Assembly: GCF_027580225.2 (NCBI RefSeq)
Contig: NC_073354.2
Location: 32,012,001 to 32,076,000, forward strand
Source of the DNA: Misgurnus anguillicaudatus
Lineage: Eukaryota; Chordata; Actinopteri; Cypriniformes; Cobitidae
Reading direction: 5' to 3'
Length of the DNA stretch: 64,000 nt
The position numbers were made by a program, and so were the translations under genes. Positions 4,833 through 47,500 of this stretch are shown here, one piece after another (position 1 is the stretch's first letter; every line of letters starts with the position of its first letter). The notes below the pieces were generated by a model. The model worked only from the letters and a program-made list of their open reading frames with translations, was not told where the DNA came from and searched no databases.

Positions 4833-6051
4833 GTCCCAGACAAAGTCTGTAGTCCCATGTATCAACTAGATATAGCAACCACCCTTTTAAAGACATGTAA
4901 AAGCTTTTAAAAAGTTATAAGAGGAGGTAATACTGCTGTGTTTTATGTTGCAGAATAAACGCAAAAATATTTGGTGCTTATGTTAACCCAAGATCTTATT
5001 TAAGGGTTTAACCAAAACCCTTTGACTTCAGGACCAAATGCTAACTCGCTTCTGGGTTTTGCCTACAAAAATACTTCATCACGGCACTCTTATTTATATT
5101 ACAAGCAGTTATACCTTGAAATAATCCTAATTTCAAGAGGTGTATTTAAAAGTGATTTCTGTGTGTTATTTTACCAAATGATTCAGAGTCAGTGTGAGTT
5201 TAGTCAGTCTTTATCATGACGTGTTGCCTGGCAGCGTTGAGGTCTCTGGAAAGGATGAAAGTGAAGTTATTTGATCCCGGGGAAATCTTGTGGGATGTCT
5301 GCCTGTATTAGGTCATCTCTATCCATCTCTCCATCCACCATTTCTGTGTCTCCGGGTAAAGACTAAAATAAAACATTAAGTGCTTCATTTTGTCTTATTA
5401 GCAATTTTTTATACGTGATCCTTTCATAAACCTTGTTTAACCCCTATTTCACAATGTTGCTTTAAGGGAAACAAGCCCATTTTCTTTCCTTTGCAAGTAC
5501 ACAATGCATATAAGATGACAATAAATGTGTTACTAATGGATACATATTTAGCCTATAGCCGTTTGATGGACTAAATAACCAATATTAACGATGAATGAAT
5601 GCACATTTTTGCACTGTAAACCTCACAAAAAGCTATTTATATCCATTAACATATGTATGTGTTAGTTAGTAAACATTTAAAACCTTTACAGACATATACA
5701 TTGTATGTGTGTTATTGATATTTAAATTTGTTTGTTGCCATGATCCAATCTTATGTATATATATATATATATTGAATACTGTTACTTTTGTATGGTGTTT
5801 ATATTTTATTTATTCTTTATTAACCATTATTAACAAGTAAAGTTTTAGTATTTAACTAAAATATAAGAAAAATAAAAAAAGCTTGTAGCCAATATAGCAA
5901 ATCAGTAACGTCCGGTAAGTGTTTATGTTTAAATCGAAGATCTATTTTCTTGTATGACCAGCTGTTAAGAGAAGAACTGAAACTGTCCAGGGTGTGTGCT
6001 TGTTAGACCCAAATATGTCCAAATTTAAACTCTCATTCTCTTTCACTTCAG
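4833..6051. other. non-coding sequence before the large cep85l exon
   Basis: AT-rich, with a TA microsatellite at about 5754-5772. No exon for the missing N-terminal part (a His-Ser-Ile-Ala-Ser type motif followed by Val-Glu-Asp would be expected) was recognised. Confidence 0.55.
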
Positions 6052-6767
6052 ATCACTCCAGCTCCAGCGGCACGCTGTCCTTCCAGCCTCTGCGTGCTCA
6101 AGGTTCGATCCCAACGGCCCACGTCATGCCATCACCCTCCAGCTCCAAGCTCAGCACACCTTCTGCCCCCACAAGCCCCTGGAGCAGCTGCCAACTCCCT
6201 TCTCCCCTCGACACCCCCCTGGACATGAAAGACCCCCGGCCGGTCCGTCGGTGGTCCTCCCTCACTCGACTCACGGGCCAGGAAAAGGCCACCCCTTCCG
6301 GGAGGCCGCCGTGCCGCGTGGACCCGCACGGGTCATTGGATCGCGGCTTGCTGTACGGCTACCGTCAGGACCCGCTATATTCAGACAGCTTTCTCTCCCA
6401 GGGCCTACACAAGCTATCCACCAACTCAGACTTTTCAAATAAGTATGACCTGGGCAGCACTAACACCTTGGGTAAAACGGACTCATCCTGCTCTTCTCCG
6501 CTTAAGCCCAGCACGTTAGACCTCACCTACAGTGCCTTACCGGAGAGCAAGACCCCTACCGTCAGTTTGGTGGGGCCCGGGCAGAGAAGTCCATCACTCA
6601 GGCACCAAGCCGTGGGAGGGTCGCCCATCCAACCGGCCGTACGGACTCAGATGTGGTTGAGCGAGCAAATGGAGTACCGGCCGGGACCGGAGGGATGTGG
6701 GATCGGCACGTGGCAACAAGAACAGCAGCAGAGAGAGAGGTTACGGCAGGAAGCAGAGCTCCCACAG
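6052..6767 (+). CDS. cep85l: cep85l large N-terminal exon
   Basis: The acceptor is ttcacttcag, ending at 6051; the donor is CACAG|GTCAGT after 6767. It starts with the last two bases of a split Asp codon and ends in phase 0 (238 whole codons). The product is Ser/Pro-rich and probably disordered. It carries the conserved TAHVMPS block, the basic stretch [22 protein letters not shown] and RTQMWLSEQ, all matching the CEP85L N-terminal half. An open frame continues upstream to an ATG at 5994, but that stretch is intron-like with a strong polypyrimidine tract, so I do not take that ATG as the start. Confidence 0.93.
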
Positions 6768-9700
6768 GTCAGTTTGGATATATTGTTTTTGATAGGGAAA
6801 AATATGCAGGGAATTGAAAGCTAATTGGGTGATTCTCACGAAATCAAGATTTAGAAGGTGTCCAGCATCAGAATTTTTTAAAAAGCCCTTGAAGCCAATT
6901 TTTTTGCACATATAAAATTACGGGTCTGAACTTACTAACCATTATTTCCTATATAATTATTTACATTTTTTAGATTATAATGATCAAAAATTATCATTAC
7001 CGTAATATGATATTACATTAAATATATGCATTTACAAGCTCATGTTTCGGTAATGAGAACTAAAACGTTGTCAGAGTACTATGATAAACAAAATTTCAAC
7101 TTTTATCTGGAAAGAAAAAATAAGAAATGCTTACCTGGTAGCCATCTTGAGTGTCACATTCAATTATGTCCCTTTCTAACTATTTTTTTTTAAATGTTAG
7201 TTCCTTGGGGGCTTAAACAAAGATTGAATATTGTTGCGGAGGATGAGAAAATTGGTCTTGGACACATTTATATTCCTTATTATTGTCTCTACATTTACCA
7301 ATGATCACCAAACACCACATGTTTCTTTACTGTAAATGTTTATAGTATAACATGCATTGAAGCTTTTTATTTTTTAGAGTTTTTTATTATAAATATTTCC
7401 ATGTCAAAGAACCCAAATCCAGTCATGGACACGTTGCAGTAATGAAAATTTTCCCTTTTATCTGGAAAAAATAACAAAATTGGTTTGTGTGATGCCAACT
7501 GAAATCATGTGCAAAATAGTGCATGAAGAGATGTTTGTAACTGTATGCTTATTATTTTGATAGCATTTACTTTTTTTTATCAAGATGTTTTATGACACCT
7601 CATAAGTCTAATTTCATGAGGATCAACCAATTGTGTTGTGTAATTGTGCCCATAAGGGAGAAGTTACAGAAGTGTGTTGTTTTGCTAAATCTGAAAGAAG
7701 GTTCACACTGCCCTCTAGTGGGGAAACAATGATACAATGAATTGAAATGCAAGTCTAATCTGACACAAAAAGCATCCGTTTATTAGTTCCCATTTGTAAA
7801 CACACATTCACAATATTTCATCTTCACTTTAATAATATATTATTCACACATATATTTTCCAAAAAGAATAATAAACACTGTGATAAAAATGACATCTTGA
7901 ATCATGTGATGGGAACAAAACAAATACTCAGACTTTCACTTTATGTGATATTGATTAGATGTAATGAAATAAGTCAAAAATCGAAGCAGTCTCAGTCTTT
8001 GTATATTTACAACACTTTGTGATTGTGAATAATATATGATGATTACAACTATGGCTATTATAATATAGATATTTATAGCCAAACCAGTGTTTTTTTTTAA
8101 ACAATTAATACAATTCCTCTGTTTATTATTTATAAGGAGCGCATATCAACACGTTTTATCACGCAAAATTAACACTGAATAGATGGCAGATGAAAAATAC
8201 TATAGTCAGGGTTCCCACGGGTCCTTGAAATTCTTGAATCTTGAAAGTGCTTGAATCTATTTTATGCAATAAGTTTTCTGGAAAAAAATCCATATTATTC
8301 CCTGTGTATGTAATGTAGGATAATATAAAATTTCTAGCCTTTTAGGCACACGTGCTAAACTGTTCGCTTTAAATGCTTTTATCTTCTGTATGCAAATGTT
8401 TATTCATACCAAAATGCTTTTTTGCATAGTTGTGTTTGACACATGAAAACGTCTCGGGTTACGTATGTAACTGTTGTTCCCTGAGAAGGGAATGGGACGC
8501 TGTGTCTCCTTTGCCATAATTCCTGCCTCCCTGTTACACCGTCTATGGCAATATTTCAGATAGCGATATACTTCCTGGCTCACGCGTCACCCTGTCTTTG
8601 TCGTTAAGCCTCACCATTGGTTGAATTTGATATACACATTCAGACGCACTTATCCTTGGAGGCGTCCCCAAAGTGTCACCGCGAGTTCCCTCGAAAGGAA
8701 CGGTAACAATGTATCTTAAAAAGTAACACGATGTAACCTTGCTCTCACTTGAAATGTGTCCCCACATTTAGTCCTTGAATTTGAGGGTATTGGACCTGGA
8801 AAGTCCTTGAAAGGTCCTTGAATTTGAAGGTGTGGGAACCCTGTATAGTATATTATTGTATTAACTATGGTAAACTGTAGTATAATATAATATAGTCTTG
8901 AATTTGAGGGTATTGGACATGGAAAGTCCTTGAAAGGTCCTTGAATTTGAAGGTGTGGGAACCCTGTATAGTATATTATTGTATTAACTATGGTAAACTG
9001 TAGTATAATATAATATAGTTTAATTACTATAGTATACTATATTATTTCCTATATTAAAGTTCAAAACACTATAGCTTCTAGCAATTGTATTTAATATTAT
9101 GTGACTTGTGCACAATTTAATGCAACTAACCCTAAATCGAACCTTTACCCTTTAGTAAGTGTATGTTCTTAATCATTATTACACTCTAACATGGACACTG
9201 CAAAAATAAAGTGTAACCAAATTTTGTGTACTATAGTAAATGTCATTGTTTATGCTGTAGTGTTTTTATGTGGGTTAGTTTAAAAGTTTTATTTGGTGTG
9301 TGAGGTGATTTGAGCAAAAATGTCTACTAGTTTTTTAGTCCCAGGTTTTTTTTATACTATATTTTTGTATATGCTTAATCCTGCTTATGTTGTTTTTATA
9401 TCAGTATCAGTCAGTGGCCACTAGAGGGTGCAATGATATAGGAAGCAGTAATATGCTGTCGGTCTCGGTTCAACTGCAATATATTTTATATAGATGAGCT
9501 TATCGGCTTTTGCTTCTTTATTATTATTTATTGTAGCACTTCAGTAAGCTACTAGAAAATGCTGAGCATGTGTAAAGTGCTGTAAGCAATCTTTTTTATA
9601 ATATAACCTGACAGACATCACTGAAATAGGTGTCCTGACAAATCACACCTGTCTCGAAACATGTTCTAGCCAGAAACTACATAGATAGAAACACTCTCTG

Positions 9701-12700
9701 CCTGTCAATCATTTTGCATCACCCTTATTAGTGGACGGGCTTTGGGGAGAGAGAGAGGGTGGACAGAGAGAGATTGCCCAATAGATCATATTGTTTACAG
9801 CATATTTCAATTGGTTTAAGAAAGATAATATAAAACACCTCAGCTGCCCTTACGGTACATTCACACGGGGCGTAAGCGTTAACGCTTCTCATTATTTATT
9901 TTTAATGGGTGACGTAATGCGTTGCTGAACTGAATTGTGGATCCGTCAACGCACCAGAAGATGAACACTTCTCAACTTTTCAAGCGCCAAGGCGTGCGTC
10001 AGTCAATCAGATCGCCTTATGCAAATAACCTAGTGGGAGCCAGCCAGTTACGTTTATGCAAGACCGGAGCACTGTGATTGGCTGTTGGCCATGTTTCAGA
10101 CGTTAACGCTTTCGCCCCGTGTGAATGCACCGTTATTCTAAATCCTGATTATTTTGGCGATCACATGACTGGGTCACATGAGCTTGACCAGAATGAGCAT
10201 GAGCAGTAGAGCCACAACGATGAGCAGAAAGTTGAGCAGCAGGTTTAGTCCTCGGTTAGTGGTCAGATCCATACTGAGCAGGTGAAGACTTGACTGGGTT
10301 GGAGAATTCGGGTGTAGGTTGATATGTGGTTGTGCAGTCGTTGGGTCCTGGATTTTGGAGGATAGGAGGACGAGCAGGTTACATTGCGCCGTGATGTCTC
10401 CACTTTAGCCGTGGAAAGAGATAAACATGATTGACATACTGATATGAGCTGACAGAAGACATAATTTGAAGACATTTCATAATAATAATAATTACTGTTG
10501 TCAGCTTAACTGTCAGTCAAGTCTCATGAAACCCTTCAAGAAATGTAAATAAATACATGCAACTAATTGATAATAACCAATTATGAAAATAGTTCATCAC
10601 ATGCTCCCACATCAGTGTTGTTTTGGAGAGCGGACACACATCCGCTTCATAAAGCGCGAGCTGTGGGCTCATAAAGTTAGTAAAAATTAAAAAAAATGGC
10701 TTTTGCACTTTTAAAAGTTCCCGCAAATAACCTAATTTAGGATTTTATTTAGCTATAATACTGTAAAAAAATAAGTTGCACTTACATTTTAAGTTTAAGA
10801 ATAATTCATTTTAAACTTTCTTGACTAGTAAGGAGTTGCTATAAATTATAAAAAAATTAAGTTTACTTAGTTATTTCAACTTTATTTTTACTCCTCACTA
10901 GTCAAGAAAGTTGAAATTAATTGTAATTTAAAATACATTTATTAATAGGGATGCATCGATAGGATATTTTTGGACCGATACCGATTTAAACAGACAACTT
11001 CTGGCCGATACCGATATTAAACACTACTAATAAAATACTATACAGTTGGTCTATTAGCTAGTTTATTTCTGCATCAAATTATTTTTACTAAAAATGGATT
11101 TAATCTAATTAACATTCAACTGACCAACATAATAAGAGAGGCACAAATTAAGCTAAAACAAATATAATAAGACAGCATAACAACCTTCAAAGGTGGTTTT
11201 TGTTATTCAGCATTTATTTTATTAACAACATTGGCTCATTTTTTACATATAATGGATTTCTTTATGCAGTTAAGTAATAAACAATCGGTATCCGCCTTTC
11301 TCGTGCTATTGCCGATATGCCGATGGTTTCAAATTCATCAAAAACCGGCCGATAAATATCGGCGGCCGATACATCGGTGCATCACTATTTATTAATTAAT
11401 TTTTAAAACTTAAAAAATGTAAATGCAACAAGGAATTTTTACAGTAAAATGTAGGTTTTTATCAGATTAGTCGATTAATCGGAAAAAATAATCGTCTAAT
11501 TAATCGACTATGAAAGTAATTGTTAGTTGCAGCCCTATTATTATTTATTAACTCTTTCCCCACCAGTATTTTTAGAACCACTTTCAAACTAAAAAAAGTT
11601 TCATCCGATCTTCATTTGTTATCTTTAAATCACCTCTCAAATATGGGTCGGATTCTTCAAAAATACCAAATTTTAAGCAAAAAGCTGAGATAATTGCATT
11701 ATTGTGAAGGACTTTAAATAGAATATGGATTGCCGTAAAAACACGTCATTGGCAGGGAACTGTTTTCTCTGGCTTGGAAAGAGTTAATGACGTTATCGTT
11801 TTCCAATTTTTCAAATTAAAGAAATGAGAACACAAGACTTATTTTGCATTACAGTAATATGACTCGCATTCATACTTAATTGTCATTAAAGTGTCACAAT
11901 AAATTATATTTTTTATGCCATTTGTTTCTTTTATTTTCTTTTTGGACCGAGTGTGACATTTTCCCGACAGGTTTCATGAGATTCACCCAATCTGCTAATT
12001 CCTCATTATGAAAATTAATGATTTATTCTTGTATATATGTGAATAACCCAGTTAGTAAAGTGGAAAATCAGCAAAACACAAAAGCAGCACACTTTTATTG
12101 CACACACGTGATCATATCGTGTTTATTGAGCAAGTGAAGTCAAGTTTGGCACAGTGCATAAAGACAGATGTCATCTCGTGGCCCACAGGTGACATGCAGT
12201 GATGGGGTGGTGACAAGAAATGGAGATAAATGCATGCAGCATCAGTTCACAGTGATGATACTGGAGCTCCAAGGCCGGTGTAGTTGTTATAAACTACAGG
12301 AGCACTTTCTTGTTTTGTTTATTATTAACATTATTAACATTGCATTAGTGATAGTCTGTTCCTGTTTATCGGCCAGGCTGATATCAACCAGTATTTGGGT
12401 TAGTTTTGATTTACGCATTGGTTGTTTTACAAAAGTGTCTACTAAAATCAACCAACAGCCTGGTGGATGCGTAGTACAACATTTTCAATATTCGTGTTAT
12501 TTGCTACACTGTCACTGGGGCAATACCCTTTAAAAAGGTCCCCATGTGTACCATTAGGTACAGATATGTATACATTTGGTACCTCCAAGGTGCCCTCTTT
12601 AGGTGCAAAGGTGTATTTTTTAAAAGGGTAACCCCCCAGTGACAGATAGGGACCAATTTTGGACCACTTTTTTTCTCTGACTGTAATATTATCAGCTTTT

Positions 12701-15700
12701 AACCACTCTGCTCACTTACCACTAATCTATAAGCTATATAACTTCTCTTAATGTTATTTACAAACAATTTAGACAAAGATCATGCTGTTTACAACATGAT
12801 TGGCCCCTCTGTACAGTCCTTCACCCTTATTGGCTCAAGGAAAAACTATGGCCCCTCCCGCTCACATTAACAAGAAAATGATGTAGATGAGAAGCAGGCA
12901 GATGAGGATGAGGCAAAAGTTGACGAAGAGATCCTGCATTTTTTGCTTGGCCTGCTGGGGAACCTCCATGGTGGACGCTCGCCGAATGGCCGCCCGCGTT
13001 ATGTGCTGCACCTTCTCCATGCTGAGGCGGGCTGTGTTTTAGTGCACAAAGAGGGGAGGGGTGCAGAAGAGAGAGAGAGAGAGAGAGAGGATGGATGGCA
13101 GTACCGCAAGGTGGAGTGGCGAGCCGTGCAGGGAGGAAAGATGCTGGTTGTCGTGGAGACGGAAGAGGTTATCCGTTGATGCGGGGCTGATGGGAGGAAG
13201 GAAGAAAATGAATGAGTGAATGTGCACCCAATAATAAAACGTGGCAGTCATGCAGATTTTGACTAGTTGATGTTTCAAAAGATCAAAATTCAAAAGGATC
13301 CAAGTACCTCCAAAGGGATTTTGTAACCTTATGCTCAAAAAAAAAACTTAACCAAAGAAGATTTTACTGAATATTTGACAACCCTTATTTTGAACAATTG
13401 CAGTATGAGACTTTAGTCCCACGTATTATTTCACATAGACCTTTACATAACTGCTTTTACCGTGTAGGAGTGTGCGTATATTTCTTTTCATTTCTCAGGC
13501 TTCGAATAAATAAAAGAAAAGCTTTTAGGAAGACATTTTAAAGAGATGATTTTCCTTGTTACAAAACAACCTAAATCGGGATTTAGCACTTCGTCTCCTG
13601 CAGAAAGATTAGATAAAAGCATGTTTTGTCAAAAGATTGGGCGCCCTTGATTATAAGTCTACATGTTAGAGGATCTCTCCTCTTATCTATCGCGTTCAGA
13701 CTGTTTTTTAATCTTGTCTCCTCAAATCTACAGGGAGGTTTGTGAAGATCCGCTTTTGCAGATGAATTTGGTATCGTCTCTTGTGTAACGTTATGGATAC
13801 AGAAACACCTGTGGCCTGTATTCTCATGGGTTGTGGTGTGCTGTTATCTGTTCTGCCAAATGTTATTCTTAGGAATGACCTTTGATGGTCACGATATTCC
13901 ATTTAAATTGTGGCCAGCCTTTACTCCGAATCCCTACGGAGCCTGAATCTATTTAACCAACTACAACTTATTGCCAAGAGGGCATTGGAGGCCTGGGATG
14001 TTTTTGCTGATGGATAGGCAGGCTGTGTCTATTTTTGCTATATGGGATATCTAGTGTTTTTGGAAAACATCAGCTTGTTGTTGAACGTAGCTTAGGTAGT
14101 AGAGGACTGTGCTAGCAACACCAAGGTCACCAAGTTTGTTTCCAAGGAAATACCAGTTTGCACTGAAAGTCAATCTGCCAACATGTAATGGTGGTCAGGG
14201 GAACCTAAAACGCTATTGAAGACCGGAGTCATTTGCATTCATTTTTATGCATTTAGCAGAAGCTTTTATTCAAATGAGGGAGCATTTAACATTTACTTAA
14301 AATATCTTTCATGGTGTTTGAAGAAACACTTTAAAAGTGTAAGAAAAGGTTTGGTGACCGTCGTTGGGCTTTCATCAGGGTAGACTGCTTATTTACTTGA
14401 TTTAAATGAGATCGAGGCCATACGAGATGGATTTACTCATATCGAACTTTCCCAATTCAAGTTTTTTCCCTGAAATTCACTGGGATTCGAACCCACAACT
14501 ATTGCGCTGCTAATGCAATGCTCTGCCAATTTAGCTACATGAACACTAACCTAACCATTGGCATTCGTATCAAATTAAACATGTTTGCCAGTGTCAATGA
14601 GGAAGAAGCTTCAGTAAATAAGTGAGTGACCACAGAGTCTAAAGTCTTTTCAGGCGCCCGGCGTAGGGGTCAAGTGATGCGAGAGATTAACGCTCTCCGT
14701 AATGATGACGGGCTCTGGAGAGATGTTTGTCAACACCACGGGCCGCGGGCATTCCAACACCCTAGTGCCTGCCCAAGGGTCGTGTCCCCGTCACTACTGA
14801 GAAAGATAATGTCATTAACATCATCTCGAGAGGGTATCGAGCAGGTCAATGTCCTCTTCACGTGTCCAGATTATCCTTCCTCATATGGTCATTCACGATA
14901 GGAATGTTCAAAATAACATTTTGTAAAACCGTTGACAAGTTGATTTGTTGGTTTTGAGCTCATCTGACTCATGATGGAATGCATTTCTTAGGGGTGTTTA
15001 CATAAGACAAAAACATCTAGACCAAGAGTAAAATTGACATTATAGTCGCTTTTATCCAAAAAAAATTGACTTACAGTGCATTTAAGGAATACATTTTATC
15101 AGTGTCATCAAACCCATGACCTTTGAGTTGCAAACACAATCTCAGAATTTGATTTTGAGACTTTATCCTTTAAGAAAGACAAAATTTTATTGGATGGCTT
15201 CCATATTTCTGCTGTATTTTATTGTATTACAAAATTGCCTGTTTTAATAACAACTGTCATTATTTTATTTATTACTCCGTAAATTTTTTTATCCAATTAG
15301 TTGATTAATCGCAAAATAATCGTCTGATAAATCGATAATGAAAATAATCGATAGTTGCGTCCGTACATGATACACTTTTTAAAAATGCCAAATTCGTTTG
15401 TTGTGGGACCCTTAATAAAAAGTGCAGACAACGCAAAGTAGATATTTAGGTTTTTACCCAATTAGTCGATTAATCACAAAATAATCGTCTGGTTAATCGA
15501 TTATGAAAATAATCGATAGTTGCGGCCGTACTTGATACACTTTTTAAAAATGCCAAATTCGTTTGTTGTGGGACCCTTAATAAAAAGTGCAGACATAACG
15601 TAAATATTAGTAAAACTCAATGTTTGACTTTTGCACTTTTAAAAGTACATGCAAATACCCTCATTAAGGGTTTTATTTAGCTATAATAAGTGAAAAATCA

Positions 15701-33700: not shown

Positions 33701-35550
33701 ATGTGCCACAAGATGGCGCTGTGTTCAGTTCTCTGATCTTGCTTGTGTTCAGTATTCTCAACTCGATGTGGTATTGTTTAACAGCAATGCTTGTCTTATT
33801 TTGCTGAAAGGCAGAAAAATGTCCCAACCAAGTACAACAAGCTTGCTTTAAAGTGTTAGGTGTGTTAAAACATTTCTTAGTAGAGGCAATTCTGCCTGCC
33901 ACATTATAATATCAGCCTCAAGCAATCCTGTCCATACCATTTTTTTCTCATTTTGTTTTATTAAATAACTTTTCTGTCTAGTGACAGGAAACTACATTTA
34001 CACTGTGAGATTGAAGAATCACTTTGATGAATCTGTAGCATCTTACTAATTTGTATTTCTTATTGAATTGTAGACAAAAGCAACAAATCCTTCAGCTTCA
34101 TGCAAGGATCAGAGAAAATGAAATACGGGCGCAACAAGTCCTCCAGAACCAGAGAGGGCGCTATGATGATTCATATCTGCTCAAAGCCAAGGTATGTCTA
34201 ACTAAATAAATAAGGAACAGTGTTGTAATAAACTGATTGTTATTAAGGCACTTACATCCCTGCTAGTTTTTGTTGATTTGTACTACATTTAAATGTATTA
34301 CCAATTGAGCAAAAGAAACAACCTTGATGTATTAATCAGCTGTATTTTTAAAGGATAAATAAAGAAGGTGCTTGATTTTTAGCATAATATTCCTGTTATT
34401 ATACAGTACATAAACCATTGGTTTCTTTTATTTTGTGCAGATTATAAAGTTTTTGTGTAGATATTTGCTGAATATCCTTTATTTTCCCTATTTAAGGTCC
34501 GCGCTATTTTTAAATGTTAGCTCGTGCAGATAGACGCCATTGATCGTTGCATTGTGCCAGCTTTGAAAATGTTATGTTCTCATCATATGTGGATGCCCCC
34601 TTAAGAAACACAGTGGACCTAAATGATAAAGATGAACAACTAATTGATTTTGTACCCTTTAATTTGCATATATTAATTGAAGCTGCTTTGAAACAATTAC
34701 AAATTGTGAAAAGTGCTATATAAAATTGAATTGAGTATACCTTGTATGTACCTGCTGCTTACGCCTGTGTTCTCTTTTCAGGACTCTCCGTACGACAGTC
34801 CCGTATCCAGCCAGAGTCCGAAATCTCAATTGGTCGAGCGGATCAGTCCCATGTGCTGTGAGAACGGCGATCTGGGCCGTAAATTAGCCGCGGCAGAACT
34901 GGAGGTCATTCACGTTAGCGAATTTCTCAAACAGAACACACAGAAGTACACTGAAGATATCAAGAAACTGGAGGAGAAGGTGAGAATCCACTGGACACGA
35001 GTACATCCAGATCCATAGTCTTGTGATTGGATCCAGTTTTAGTATTAGACGGCAATATACTAATGCTAAAATATATTACCCTGGGCCACAAAACCAGTCA
35101 TAAGGGTAAATTTTTTGAAACATCTGAAAGCTGAATAAAATAGGTATTTGGCCAAGATACATCTATTTGGAAATCTGATATCTGAAAAAATCTAAATATT
35201 TAGAAAGTCGCCTTTCACCTTCCAATGCAATGACTTTATTTTATTTTTTTGGGGGGGGGGGTATTTCACCCCACTTTTTGGGAGCTTGGGGATCATTGAT
35301 AAAATATCCATCATACAATTTATCCCCCCACCACCCCTGACCCAGAATTTATTTTGTTGCCTCAGCCAGGGCAACACTGTGCTATAATGATACAAAAACA
35401 CCAAGTTTTTATATGATAAATTACATAAGGAAAGCAATATATACATTAGAAAAAAAACATCGATCACAAATGATTCCAGCCAAACATGCTGACTACTAAC
35501 TGTAACTAACACTGTATGTGTAAATGTTTCCCACATTTTCATATAAACAA

Positions 35551-38500: not shown

Positions 38501-41500
38501 TAATGTCGGTCTTGTCTACATCACCAATCCCAAATTTTTGATAGGATATTTGAAAATAATCTTTACTTAATATCCTAATGATTTTTGGGCTACTACTTTT
38601 GTGCTACTAAAGACTGGTTTTGTGGTCCAGGGTCACAACTATTGTTGTTATCTATGAATTTACTGTTTTACATAAAAGGCAGAACAAATATTGAAGCACT
38701 TATATGTTTTTATTCAGATGCTCAATTACAGTTATTTACTTGCAGTCTTTAATAGTAACATAAGTTTTAATAATTCATTACTAACTTACGAGAGAAGCTG
38801 AATGTGCTGCTTCAAATTTGGGTATAAAAATGTGAATTCAATTTGACATTTATCACTCCAGTTCGAAACGGTGAAATGTTGAAAACGAAAGAGTCCACAT
38901 TACGAAAGGGTCTGCGCTGAAGCTGAGATCATTCACCAGCATGACAGAACAGAGCATCACGTGCTCCTTATGACCTTGTCATAAACAAAATGCACTCGTG
39001 TGGTTCAAATGCTGCGGAAAAACCAAGTGCAAAACTTAAAATCTTTACAGTATGTGTGTGAATGCATGCACAGATTACAGAAAATCATTGGCAGTGTGAA
39101 TGAACTAAAAGTCAAACGATCCCAGACAAATTTTCTGTGTGTTTTCCGTGATCTCGTTGTTAAAGTGGTGCTGTAAAAGATATACGAGATGCATATGATG
39201 CTTCCTTCAAAAGTACCTTGTCCGCCTTTTATAACAGCTTACACATCTCAAGCGTTTACAATGCTGCCTCCGCAGGGAGCTCGCTAGGTTTGGAACAAAG
39301 CCGTTTAGAGGTTAAAGGACTGTGTACCATATCCCCCGCTGAAGCTAACAAGACGCTTTGTGCTTTTGTTCAGATGAAAACCCGCGACCGCTACATCAGC
39401 AGTCTGAAGAAGAAGTGCCAGCGCGAGCAGGAGCAGAATCAAGAGAAGCAACAGCGCATCGAGACGCTGGAGAAATACCTGGCAGATCTTCCCTCGCTGG
39501 ATGAGGTCCAGACGCAGGCTCAGCAGGTACGTGATGTTCTCCTCCCTGCCCTAAATGATACAGGATCACTGCTTACATTTATTGTTAAGATCCGATTCCG
39601 AACAACCAAATCTCCCATGTTTCTTATTTAACAGCGCCTAACTTCTTAACATAGGGCTTAATCGCGATTAATTACATACAAAATTAAAGTTTGTTTTTGC
39701 ATAATATGTGTGTGTGTGTACTGTGTGTATATATTATGTATATATAAATACACACATATATGTATGAATTTAAGAAAAAAAATATTTAGGTATGTTTTTT
39801 ACTTATATATTTATAATATAAAATATATCAAAATATATGAACGCAATAAATCCTTTTTGACTAATTTTGGTAAAAATGTGTTTTCTATACCAAGAAAGTG
39901 ACAAGATGAAAACCACTATTTTCTGTTACAAACTTTCACATAGCATCTCTAGGTTATAAAAACATAAAAAATTCAAATCTATAATTTGATTTTTAAAGAT
40001 TTATTATAAAAACTGATTATTATTTTCCGTAAAATGCAATAAATCCATGACAATTTTTTTTCCAAAATGCTATAAATCTATTGAATCAATATATAAATTT
40101 GCATTGATCTTTGCCATGTTATATTCATTTAGTTGACTAGTGGTATACACTGATAAAAAATAAACATTAATGGCTTTAATTAAAACACTTACTTTGTCAT
40201 ATTAGCAACACTGTCATTGCTGCTGTTATGCGACGTCATCGCTGAACTTTTTTTGACACGATCAGCTGTAAAATGTTTTGGTCCTGCTTGATTTTCGTTG
40301 ACTTTGAGTAAAATAATGGAAAGTTTTTCATAAGATCCCCCTGGGGTCAATGTGTTAGCATGACAGAAGCTTGATGCTGTCGCGTGAAAACAAGCAACAT
40401 CCGGCATTTTTCGTCTCCCGAGTGCCTCTCGCGTAAATTATTAGATTTTGATGGCTTACGTTTCTTCTCGGTCACAAAAAAAACACCACATGTTTATCAA
40501 TGCCATCAAAGTAGTATTATTTTGTTTTTGTTTGTTTGTCGATCACGAAGTACAAGATGAGAAAAACTAGGATTCTGTGTGTATTCAAAGCGCCGCCATT
40601 GTTGTTTACAATGCGTGGAAAGGTGCGCTGTGATTGGTTGAGCGGATTTATTGAATTCTGCAGAGGAGGAGTGGCATTTATCACGTTTTGGGAAAACACG
40701 GCGGATATTGGATTTTGCGTAAAAATTAAGAAATAACTTTTTAATACTGACCTGATATAATACATATATATATATATTTCTTAAATACAAACATTAACGT
40801 GTGTGTATATTTATATATATAAAATAATTACACACAGTGCACACACATAACTCAAAAAACTTTGTATGCGATTAATCGCAATTAATATTTTGACAGCCCT
40901 GAATTTATACGTACAGTGCTTTACATAATTTTAGTGATTTCCTGTTTTCTACATAAAATCATCTTACATAATGTGAAGTACATTCTGTAAAAATATAACC
41001 TTGATTGAAATCAATGTGAAATAAATGACTGAAATCAAACTGCTCCTAATCTCATACTACAATTATAAGACTTTAGTCTGGTTGCAATGGTTGCTTTTCA
41101 GTATGTGTATTAATACTGAAGGTCACCTTGGATAAAACAATGTTAATCTCCGATTACCATGTCAATTGTGTCATTCTTCTCCGGTTTATCTGCAAACCAC
41201 AAATCTGATTGTGGGTCCCAAACATCTTAACTAATCTCAATACATTTAATCAGAGGCAATTAAACGCTGTATTCAATACTAAACTAACAGAGCAGTGTCA
41301 GTCCCTAAGGCACAGATCAGAGCAAACAGCTGCTAATGTGACAGCATGCGTTCATCGTTATATTTGGGAATAATCTTCTTCACGCTTACTCAGTAGCTGC
41401 GTTAACATGGACAATTGTAATCAGTTTAAATGTTCAAAACAAATAAAAATGCTCCATTTAAACACCTCAATCGTAATAAAAAGAGTCAAACCAATTGAAA

Positions 41501-44500: not shown

Positions 44501-47500
44501 TAAATATAAAAAAGCAAAGAAATCTAAATAGAATAAGAAAAATTTTCTTGAATTAAGCGTATATGAAAAAAGTAAACTTATTTCAAGAAAATGTTTCTTA
44601 TTCCATTGGCAGATTTTTTTTTGGCTTGTTTTAAGCATAAATTTACTTACATTTTAGATTTTTTGTCTAAAAACTAGACTTATTTTCCTAGGTCATTTTG
44701 CTCATCAAAAAATATATCTTAATTTAAGAATTCTGAGATATTTTTACTGAAACAAGACAAAAATACTAAGTAAGAAAGTCTTTTTTTTTTGCAGTGAAGC
44801 TGAAATAATTGCATTTTTTGCTTCAGTTTTTTATAAATTGGGTAAGTGGATAAGCTAGTGGATAATCATGGTATTGCAGATTATTATTAACATAAAAATT
44901 CATCACAATGAAAAAATGCTTTTCAAGAAAAAAATTCTTGTTTTCAGTAAAAATATCTACAGATTCTTCAATTATGATGCTTTCTCTTGATTAGCAAAAT
45001 GACCCAAGAAACTAAGTCTAGTTTTTAGACCAAAAAGATCAAATTTAAGTTATTTTGTGCATAAAGCAAGCAAAAAAATCTGCCAATGGGGTAAGCATAT
45101 TTTTCTTGAATTTTGCTTGTTTTATGCACAAAATCACTTAAATTTGATGTTTGTGGTCTAAGGGCTGGACTTATTTTCTTGGGTCATTTTGCTCATCAAA
45201 AAATACATCTTAATTTAAGAATGTTTAGATATTTTTACTGAAAACAAGAATTTTTTTTCTTGAAAAATATTTTCTCTTAATTGAGAAGATAACTCGTCAA
45301 TGGCGGGGAAAGAGTTAAAGAAAGACCCAACCCGAGACAAACCCAAGAAAATTAGACCCGAATATAAGGTCTCCGGTCGGACCTTGGGTTTTCAGATCTA
45401 AGTGAAGACCTCTAGGCAGAAGTACATTTTCAGATTTTGGTTATAGTTAATGAGGGCACATGAACAAAAAAACGGAAATTGTAAAATTTTCATTGGAGAC
45501 TTAAAACGCACCCAACGTCGTAAACACGACTAACTGGCTCGTAAATGCGAACATCCCAGGAGGACATGAACGCATTATTCTTTAAATGGAAAGATAATGG
45601 GACATTGTTCAGCTTGATGACGTTTATGTTGAATTTGGCGGCCCGGGGGTTTACTTAAGATCTAAACGCTGTCGTTTGTCTTCCTCGCAGTCGCTGGAGA
45701 AGAGGTTGCAGAGGGAGAGAGGGATAACGCAAGAACTCCGAAAACAGCTCGTTGAACGCGAGGAGGAGCTTGAAAACCTCTCCGTGAGTCCTCAGCAGGT
45801 ACAGCACTCCGAACCTCCATCTATCTCCTCAAAGGCACTCTGTAGTGCCCCCGAAGGCAGTTTTGCATGCCACCTCACCTTGCAGATTTCAGACAAAAGA
45901 GCCATTTTACGAGGTTGTTAGGCACCAAAGAGAGGAGACGTTGTGCACCATAAATGCTGATCTTATGTGTTTGAGCTCATAACACAAAACAAGTCCTGCC
46001 GATGTTGGATGCTCTCGACGTTGAAGGATCATTTTTGCACCATTAAATTCTTGCTTCTCCTCCCGCTCTTCGAGACATGAATAAGCGACCGGCCTTCAGC
46101 GCACTATTAGAATTCAAGACGTGTTTTTTCTGAACGCCGTCTGAAGGTGAGAGCGAGCGGGAATTTTCACAGAGGCGAAGTCGTGCTTGATAAAAGCCAC
46201 GTGGTTTACTTTGACTGAAGAGCCAGACGTTATACATTACATCTGTGACAGACAAACATCAATTCTTCCTCTGTCTGACACTGTTTTACCATATTTCATT
46301 TATGTGAACATGTTATATACATACATGCATCCATAAGATCAATGTTCTCCATCATTGTAAGTTTGAGATGTATTATATTTTCACTTTGGTGTAAATGAAT
46401 TAGCAGCCTTACAGCTGTCTACCGTAGATTTGATCCCACAGTGTCCTGTAGTTTATTGGAGACTTTCATCCGTGTTTATGTGATTTCTAACCCGCTGTGC
46501 AAGTGCTGCTAATTCTGCCTCTTACTGTTCAACGATTCAGGCAATTTTCACAAACAATTGCTTCAGATTTCCTGAGAGGTTTGTGCAAAGTAGCCTTTCA
46601 TGAATAACATTACAGTAGACAGGACAGTAAAATGTAAACTTATGATATAGCCTTATTGTCAAAAATCAGCTCTGCCCTTTTTTAAGACTATAAATTCACT
46701 TGGTTGTGTCTCACAGGAGAAGATGTGTAAAGCCTTTCTGTGTATTTTGTTTCTAACAGGACCGAAGGCGGTCAGATGAGGATTTGGTGAATGTGGCTCC
46801 AGGGTCCTGTCTGAAGGAGGCCGGTCCCCTGTTAAAGGAGATGTCCCTGTGTCTGCTGGATCTCAAGGGCCTCTGTAGTGTCCTCAGCCAAAGAGCTCAA
46901 GGCAAAGAGCCCAACCTGGCCCTGCTTCTCGGCATCAAATGTAAATATATTTATAACATGTAGCTGTAGTGATACATTTGTCTCAAAGATCATCCAGTGT
47001 ATTGAATTCACATTTCTATCCCAAAATTCAACTTCTCTCAGAAGTCATTAATGAATCAAGCATAACATTCAATCGCTAAAACCTATTTTTCTATCAAGGA
47101 CTGCAAATAGGGCAACGCGCGTTACGGCTACGTTAGGGCAACGCGCGTTACGGCTACGTTAGGGCAACGCACGTTACGGCTACGTTAGGGCAACGCACGT
47201 TACGGCTACGTTAGGGCAACGCACGTTACGGCTACGTTAGGGCAACGCACGTTACGGCTACGTTAGGGCAACGCACGTTACGGCTACGCTTAGGGCAACG
47301 CACGTTACGGCTACGCTTAGGGCAACGCACGTTACGGCTACGTTAGGGCAACGCACGTTACGGCTACGTTAGGGCAACGCACGTTACGGCTACGTTAGGG
47401 CAACGCACGTTACGGCTACGTTAGGGCAACGCACGTTACGGCTACGTTTGGGCAACGCACGTTACGGCTACGGTAGGGCAACGCACGTTACGGCTACGTT

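Follow-up and report, generated by a model that had tools for sequence, protein, structure and literature searches.

In the DNA of Misgurnus anguillicaudatus, we found on the minus strand, downstream of the phospholamban gene (pln), a 32-codon ORF with its stop codon (10174..10272), which takes the name MDL from the residues at its N-terminus. Taken together, sequence, profiles, conservation and AlphaFold2 modeling indicate a putative PLN-related membrane micropeptide. We consider it probable that this conserved micropeptide frame is part of the pln transcription unit, in which it would form an alternative last exon, and its product is predicted to be located in muscle or ER membrane and to inhibit SERCA. 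All coordinates refer to the window, that is, the whole stretch of 64,000 nucleotides that was analyzed.

The ORF was found intact at the place and on the strand given by an earlier sequence-only reading, with 32 codons followed by a stop codon, and the 11 identities counted there over 23 gap-free positions between ORF residues 10–32 and PLN residues 30–52 were correct. Because leucine-rich helices match by chance, shuffle controls were run. None of 5000 shuffles of the whole ORF reached its ungapped score against PLN, 4 of 5000 shuffles of residues 10–32 alone did so, and 2 of 5000 gave 11 identities in the fixed register. The window was also divided into 2180 six-frame pieces (stop to stop, at least 20 aa) and scanned with a PLN profile of 19 sequences, including the window's own pln; pln came first (E 2.6e-35) and MDL second (E 0.0012). 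When 177,635 distinct PDB sequences were searched with a profile of the MDL family, three matches were obtained at E values up to 10. Each of them was phospholamban, with a best E value of 0.18, and the MDL–PLN signal is therefore weak but specific. A chance hydrophobic ORF was considered, given that leucine-rich 32-codon ORFs arise easily and that the Pfam score of MDL is under the cut-off, but this explanation was rejected on the basis of the shuffles, the window-wide profile scan and the recurrence of the same 32 positions in 14 further records, and its probability appears negligible. Judged from the sequence evidence, the MDL ORF is real.

Relatives were collected by protein searches, in which a 41-codon query yielded 3 proteins and a profile of those yielded 10, and by a joint PLN and MDL profile, which yielded 145 matches, the best 120 of which were taken. 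Of the 121 proteins collected, the window's included, 15 contain the 32 positions of MDL without insertions or deletions. Lack of the frame in relatives would have spoken against the sequence-only reading, but 14 records besides the window have it. The named holders are Anguilla anguilla, Conger conger, Albula goreensis, Aldrovandia affinis, Acipenser ruthenus, Electrophorus electricus, and Alligator mississippiensis; among the best 120 of the 145 matches, no frame-holding match was named as mammal, bird, shark or spiny-rayed fish. In viral contigs, none of 535 pattern matches was a relative. Residue 32 is the exact C-terminal end in 11 of the 14 further records, and in the other three (P0006, P0029, and P0038) a W follows. 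A W directly after the PLN end is likewise common in Logan ORFs of PLN itself, and for this reason we infer that W after MDL residue 32 represents TGA. All 15 records end with Val-Lys-(Leu/Met)-(Leu/Met), and 16 of the 32 columns are invariant among the 14 distinct MDL sequences.

The conservation begins abruptly. For the 13 sequences with at least 15 residues before the Met (78 pairs), the mean pairwise identity was 81% inside MDL and 13% over the 15 residues just upstream, and this drop across the Met indicates that MDL probably starts there. The nearest relative, P0006, is identical to the window at 32 of 32 positions in MDL and at 27 of 43 aligned residues in the leader, which in the window is open and in frame with MDL (10273..10404, minus strand) and, by this alignment, has diverged from that of P0006. 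Only the Anguilla record P0003, a free-standing chain of 32 residues with an odd Pro13, has this Met as its first residue. In contrast to P0003, the genome model P0026 of Anguilla contains a PLN tail but not the MDL frame. These comparisons show an ancient frame whose sequence has changed very little among sturgeon, eels, electric eel and alligator.

The pln coding sequence, encoding 52 amino acid residues (12862..13020, minus strand; PF04272, E 9.4e-32), is located 2.6 kb upstream of MDL on the same strand. It is flanked on both sides by exon-like ORFs on the plus strand (5958–6824, 34710–35018, and 39164–39631), which we take to be cep85l; in Pfam, no family was above the cut-off for these three ORFs and one minus-strand ORF. 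Linkage of the frame to pln, as claimed in the sequence-only reading, was found over a great evolutionary distance in gene models and isoform names. The gene models, from NCBI and elsewhere, are predictions. Gene models from Aldrovandia, Albula, Acipenser, and Conger have PLN residues at the beginning and MDL at the end of one protein, and these fused models place pln and then MDL on the same strand in sturgeon (Chondrostei) and Elopomorpha (Aldrovandia), as in the window. The Bagarius gene model P0015 passes through MDL in a shifted frame, with 13 consecutive compatible residues versus at most 7 in 2420 shuffles, the allowed letters having been widened at position 3 (Ile) after the record was inspected by eye. 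Alligator P0008 and Electrophorus P0019, which carry MDL behind a different N-terminus and in which no PLN domain passes the Pfam cut-off, bear the name "cardiac phospholamban isoform X1". For Electrophorus, isoform X1 (P0019) and isoform X2 (P0035), a PLN ending with ISFCAM, list contigs of equal size (32,540,680). The isoform X1 names suggest that the annotation pipeline joined PLN and MDL to one gene.

Since four gene models run from pln into MDL and the Alligator and Electrophorus records are named isoform X1, it is more likely that MDL is a last exon used alternatively by pln than that it is a gene of its own. The sequence-only reading had proposed an unannotated tandem duplicate of pln. 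Its duplicate origin was retained, as MDL likely arose as a duplicate of pln; its status as a separate tandem gene was not, since the isoform X1 names and the spliced PLN tails point to an alternative last exon. "Unannotated" holds for the window as read, but elsewhere the frame already sits in databases inside pln gene models.

The spliced tails are related to the end of the PLN coding sequence. The donor-like sequence ATGTGAGC (12860..12867, minus strand), presumably used in Misgurnus, holds PLN codon 52 (ATG) and the stop codon (TGA). Its donor-like point falls after AT, and splicing there would replace Met-stop with Ile and a tail. Ile52 with a tail was present in 13 of 108 PLN-type proteins, four of which end with ISFHGM; three of these four are named carp or goldfish. 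The ISFHGM-tailed PLN is said to be the zebrafish isoform of Gorski et al., from JBC in 2015. No paper with SFHGM or zfPLN was found in the open literature. P0006 contains SFHGM in frame with MDL and 45 residues before it; at the matching place, the window has SFHG followed by a stop codon (C-TCT-TTC-CAC-GGC-TAA; 10405..10420, minus strand), which by homology would be the start of the downstream exon and the counterpart of the carp and goldfish ISFHGM tail. For these reasons, the tail and MDL are probably encoded by a single exon. The carp and goldfish protein seemingly takes its tail from the same downstream exon as MDL, as judged from P0006, but it is a tailed PLN, whereas MDL would be a second, shorter product. 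Separately, 29 of the 108 PLN-type proteins, P0042 among them, have Leu-Leu-Ser-Ser ends (23 ending there and 6 continuing with W); where named, they are mostly from spiny-rayed fishes.

At the putative position of the splice acceptor of the relatives (10421..10422, minus strand), just before the tail, the window has AT, whereas the protein sequences of P0006 and of the Electrophorus isoforms X1 and X2 (the latter P0035) imply AG. The exon would therefore have to be entered at another AG or be lost in the window. Candidate acceptors in the sequence are two alternative AGs (10439..10450, minus strand; AG ending at 10449 and 10439) and the acceptor-like AGTCTTCACCTGCTCAG (10274..10290, minus strand; AG ending at 10274), which ends one base before the ATG of MDL. 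Joining of the pln donor to the AG ending at 10449 would give PLN a tail that starts with Ile-Ser-Tyr-Gln-Tyr (10427–10448, minus strand), in which Ser-Tyr-Gln-Tyr resembles the sarcolipin tail; this was taken as chance. The AT in place of AG, together with an inverted-repeat element 40 bases after the MDL stop codon, would fit a decaying remnant whose exon has lost its splice acceptor in this species. We give this explanation little credence, as the ORF is intact and identical to P0006 at all 32 positions despite a leader that differs at 16 of 43 aligned residues, and other AGs lie nearby.

The same gene models and acceptors bear on whether MDL is a free peptide. It might be made solely as the second helix of a PLN–linker–helix fusion, as in the in-frame fusion models of Conger, Albula, Aldrovandia, and Acipenser, where the linkers of Albula, Aldrovandia, and Conger have a TAPS[CS]G stretch in common; in the window, an in-frame fusion would also result from use of either of two acceptor-like AGs that follow TAA, or of the one directly preceding the ATG. 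However, the Anguilla record is free-standing with 32 residues, the carp and goldfish tail stops at SFHGM, and the linker is unconserved outside these records (13% over 15 residues), with conservation beginning at the Met. We consider translation solely as a fusion quite improbable and regard the alternative last exon encoding a separate MDL peptide as the better account. The halosaur, bonefish, sterlet, and conger PLN models (P0005, P0007, P0011, and P0012) that fuse PLN and MDL were probably annotated incorrectly, unless such a two-helix protein is really made.

The surroundings of MDL contain repeated sequences. An inverted repeat at 9852–10133, with 33-nt arms that are 94% complementary and 216 nt apart, is MITE-like and begins 40 bases after the MDL stop codon; on the minus strand, it holds ATTAAA (9906) and AATAAA (9900), a candidate polyadenylation signal for an MDL transcript. 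Between pln and MDL, a stretch rich in GATACCGAT and ATCGGCC (10930–11400) resembles a transposon remnant, and no inverted repeat of at least 14 nt was found in it. An open frame of a repeated unit at 47373–47726 (plus strand) is minisatellite-like.

MDL was compared with phospholamban. On PF04272, MDL scored 16.2 bits (E 0.0073), below the curated Pfam cut-off of 25 bits, and human sarcolipin (SLN) also scored 16.2 bits; P0008, P0009, and P0038 contained no PLN match at E values up to 1. MDL shares with PLN membrane domain II a gap-free register (residues 10–32 versus 30–52), the same last residue and the same locus. In the Asn-Phe register, the invariant MDL residues Leu11, Asn14, Phe15, Leu17, Ile18, Leu22, Leu24, and Val29 align with PLN Leu31, Asn34, Phe35, Leu37, Ile38, Leu42, Leu44, and Val49, respectively. 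A PLN-type membrane domain with Asn34 and the inhibitory face is thereby present in MDL (Leu11, Asn14, Phe15, Ile18, and Leu22, all invariant). MDL differs from PLN in having neither the cytoplasmic domain Ia/Ib nor Cys, in the basic Lys30, which falls on PLN residue 50 and SLN Arg27, and in its own invariant N-terminus MDL..(N/H)(R/K)G. In none of the 15 records do the 32 residues include the Arg-Arg-Ala-Ser phosphorylation site or the cytoplasmic domain. Conservation and register thus bear out the proposal of a PLN-related, sarcolipin-sized micropeptide frame beside pln that does not have the phosphorylated domain.

The likeness to SLN consists of a length of 31–32 residues, a short N-terminus, Asn-Phe at the membrane entry and a basic residue at the luminal exit. 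MDL differs in its linkage to pln and in an N-terminus unlike MERSTQE. PF05366 of Pfam did not match MDL at E values up to 10, a profile of three mammalian SLN sequences found pln in the window but not MDL at E values up to 1, and the Arg-Ser-Tyr-Gln-Tyr (RSYQY) luminal tail was absent from all 15 MDL records. In profile comparisons with the same three-sequence mammalian SLN profile, the probabilities were 91 for MDL–PLN, 60 for MDL–SLN, and 95 for PLN–SLN. By family membership as these profiles define it, MDL is neither PLN nor SLN.

These results also bear on a stricter reading, in which MDL would be a PLN-linked sarcolipin and an ohnologue of SLN. It draws on the equal size, the likewise missing cytoplasmic domain and Lys30 in the register of SLN Arg27; in addition, SLC35F1 is presumably a neighbor of human PLN, as its paralogue SLC35F2 is of SLN. 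Nevertheless, the SLN profile and PF05366 results are against it, MDL is closer to PLN than to SLN while PLN and SLN are closer to each other, and RSYQY is missing. Ser or Thr occurs at position 4 or 5, the site of SLN Ser4/Thr5, in 6 of 15 records. We regard an SLN ohnologue as unlikely, and identity with sarcolipin in the strict sense was rejected, with Pfam, profile and tail all against it. Furthermore, zebrafish and Xenopus are reported to have an SLN with the N-terminus MERSTQE (PMC6011225). MDL would therefore be an addition to SLN in fish, and with a separate SLN in zebrafish, the "sarcolipin-type" identity assigned in the sequence-only reading fell on this count as well as on the profile and tail results.

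MDL is predicted to be a single short membrane helix without any other domain, as are the SERCA regulins. AlphaFold2 gave one helix over residues 2–31 with a mean pLDDT of 89.7, and the 19-residue hydropathy maximum was 3.29 at MDL 11–29. The other regulins DWORF/STRIT1, MLN, ELN, and ALN are single-helix micropeptides acting on SERCA (PMC13368986, PMC8396278), and MDL resembles them in this form, to which the comparison was confined; no close sequence match was noticed among them.

As an alternative last exon, MDL would be expressed as follows. If splicing of a 5′ exon skipped the PLN exon, the resulting mRNA would encode the 32-aa MDL. The PLN exon left unspliced would give ordinary PLN, whereas use of the donor-like site within its stop codon would yield a PLN whose luminal tail differs. 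MDL may then occupy the SERCA groove as PLN does, with Asn14 in place of PLN Asn34. PLN Asn34 and SLN Asn11 are required for inhibition, and SLN inhibition depends on the RSYQY tail (PMC8396278); PLN Leu31 and SLN Leu8 are given as inhibitory contacts (PMC13368986). MDL does not have RSYQY, and a PLN-type rather than an SLN-type mechanism is therefore expected. Without the segment carrying Ser16/Thr17, MDL would be a brake not releasable through the PLN switch. Because MDL has Asn at the position of PLN Asn34 and no RRAS segment, we infer that it would be a sarcolipin-sized SERCA inhibitor beyond the reach of the phosphorylation switch of PLN.

The opposite effect was also considered, namely that MDL binds SERCA without inhibiting it and displaces PLN as a DWORF-like competitor. 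MDL would compete for the same groove, and its origin from the same locus would make it a possible built-in antagonist. However, the activator DWORF is distinguished by a Pro in place of Asn34 (PMC13368986, PMC8396278), whereas this Pro is not present in MDL, in which Asn14 is invariant. A DWORF-like role is accordingly rather unlikely, and inhibition in the manner of PLN is preferred.

Six vertebrate SERCA regulins, PLN, SLN, MLN, ELN, ALN, and DWORF, are counted in reviews up to July 2026 (PMC13368986). MDL is likely, on its sequence features, a further one. No description of the MDL peptide was found in titles and abstract starts of the open literature, a scope in which subscription papers and preprints are mostly not included. 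With slightly less than even confidence, we propose that pln of bony vertebrates is a multi-product gene encoding PLN, a tailed PLN formed by use of the stop codon as a splice donor, and, from the alternative last exon, a seventh SERCA regulin acting as a constitutive sarcolipin-sized brake; the exon would date from the bony-vertebrate ancestor, and SLN may be a surviving copy of it at a duplicated locus. If this is true, two regulators may be affected together whenever pln is knocked out or introduced as a transgene in fish and reptiles, the tailed PLN forms of fish would be explained as splice products, and the question of the origin of PLN and SLN would gain a concrete locus.
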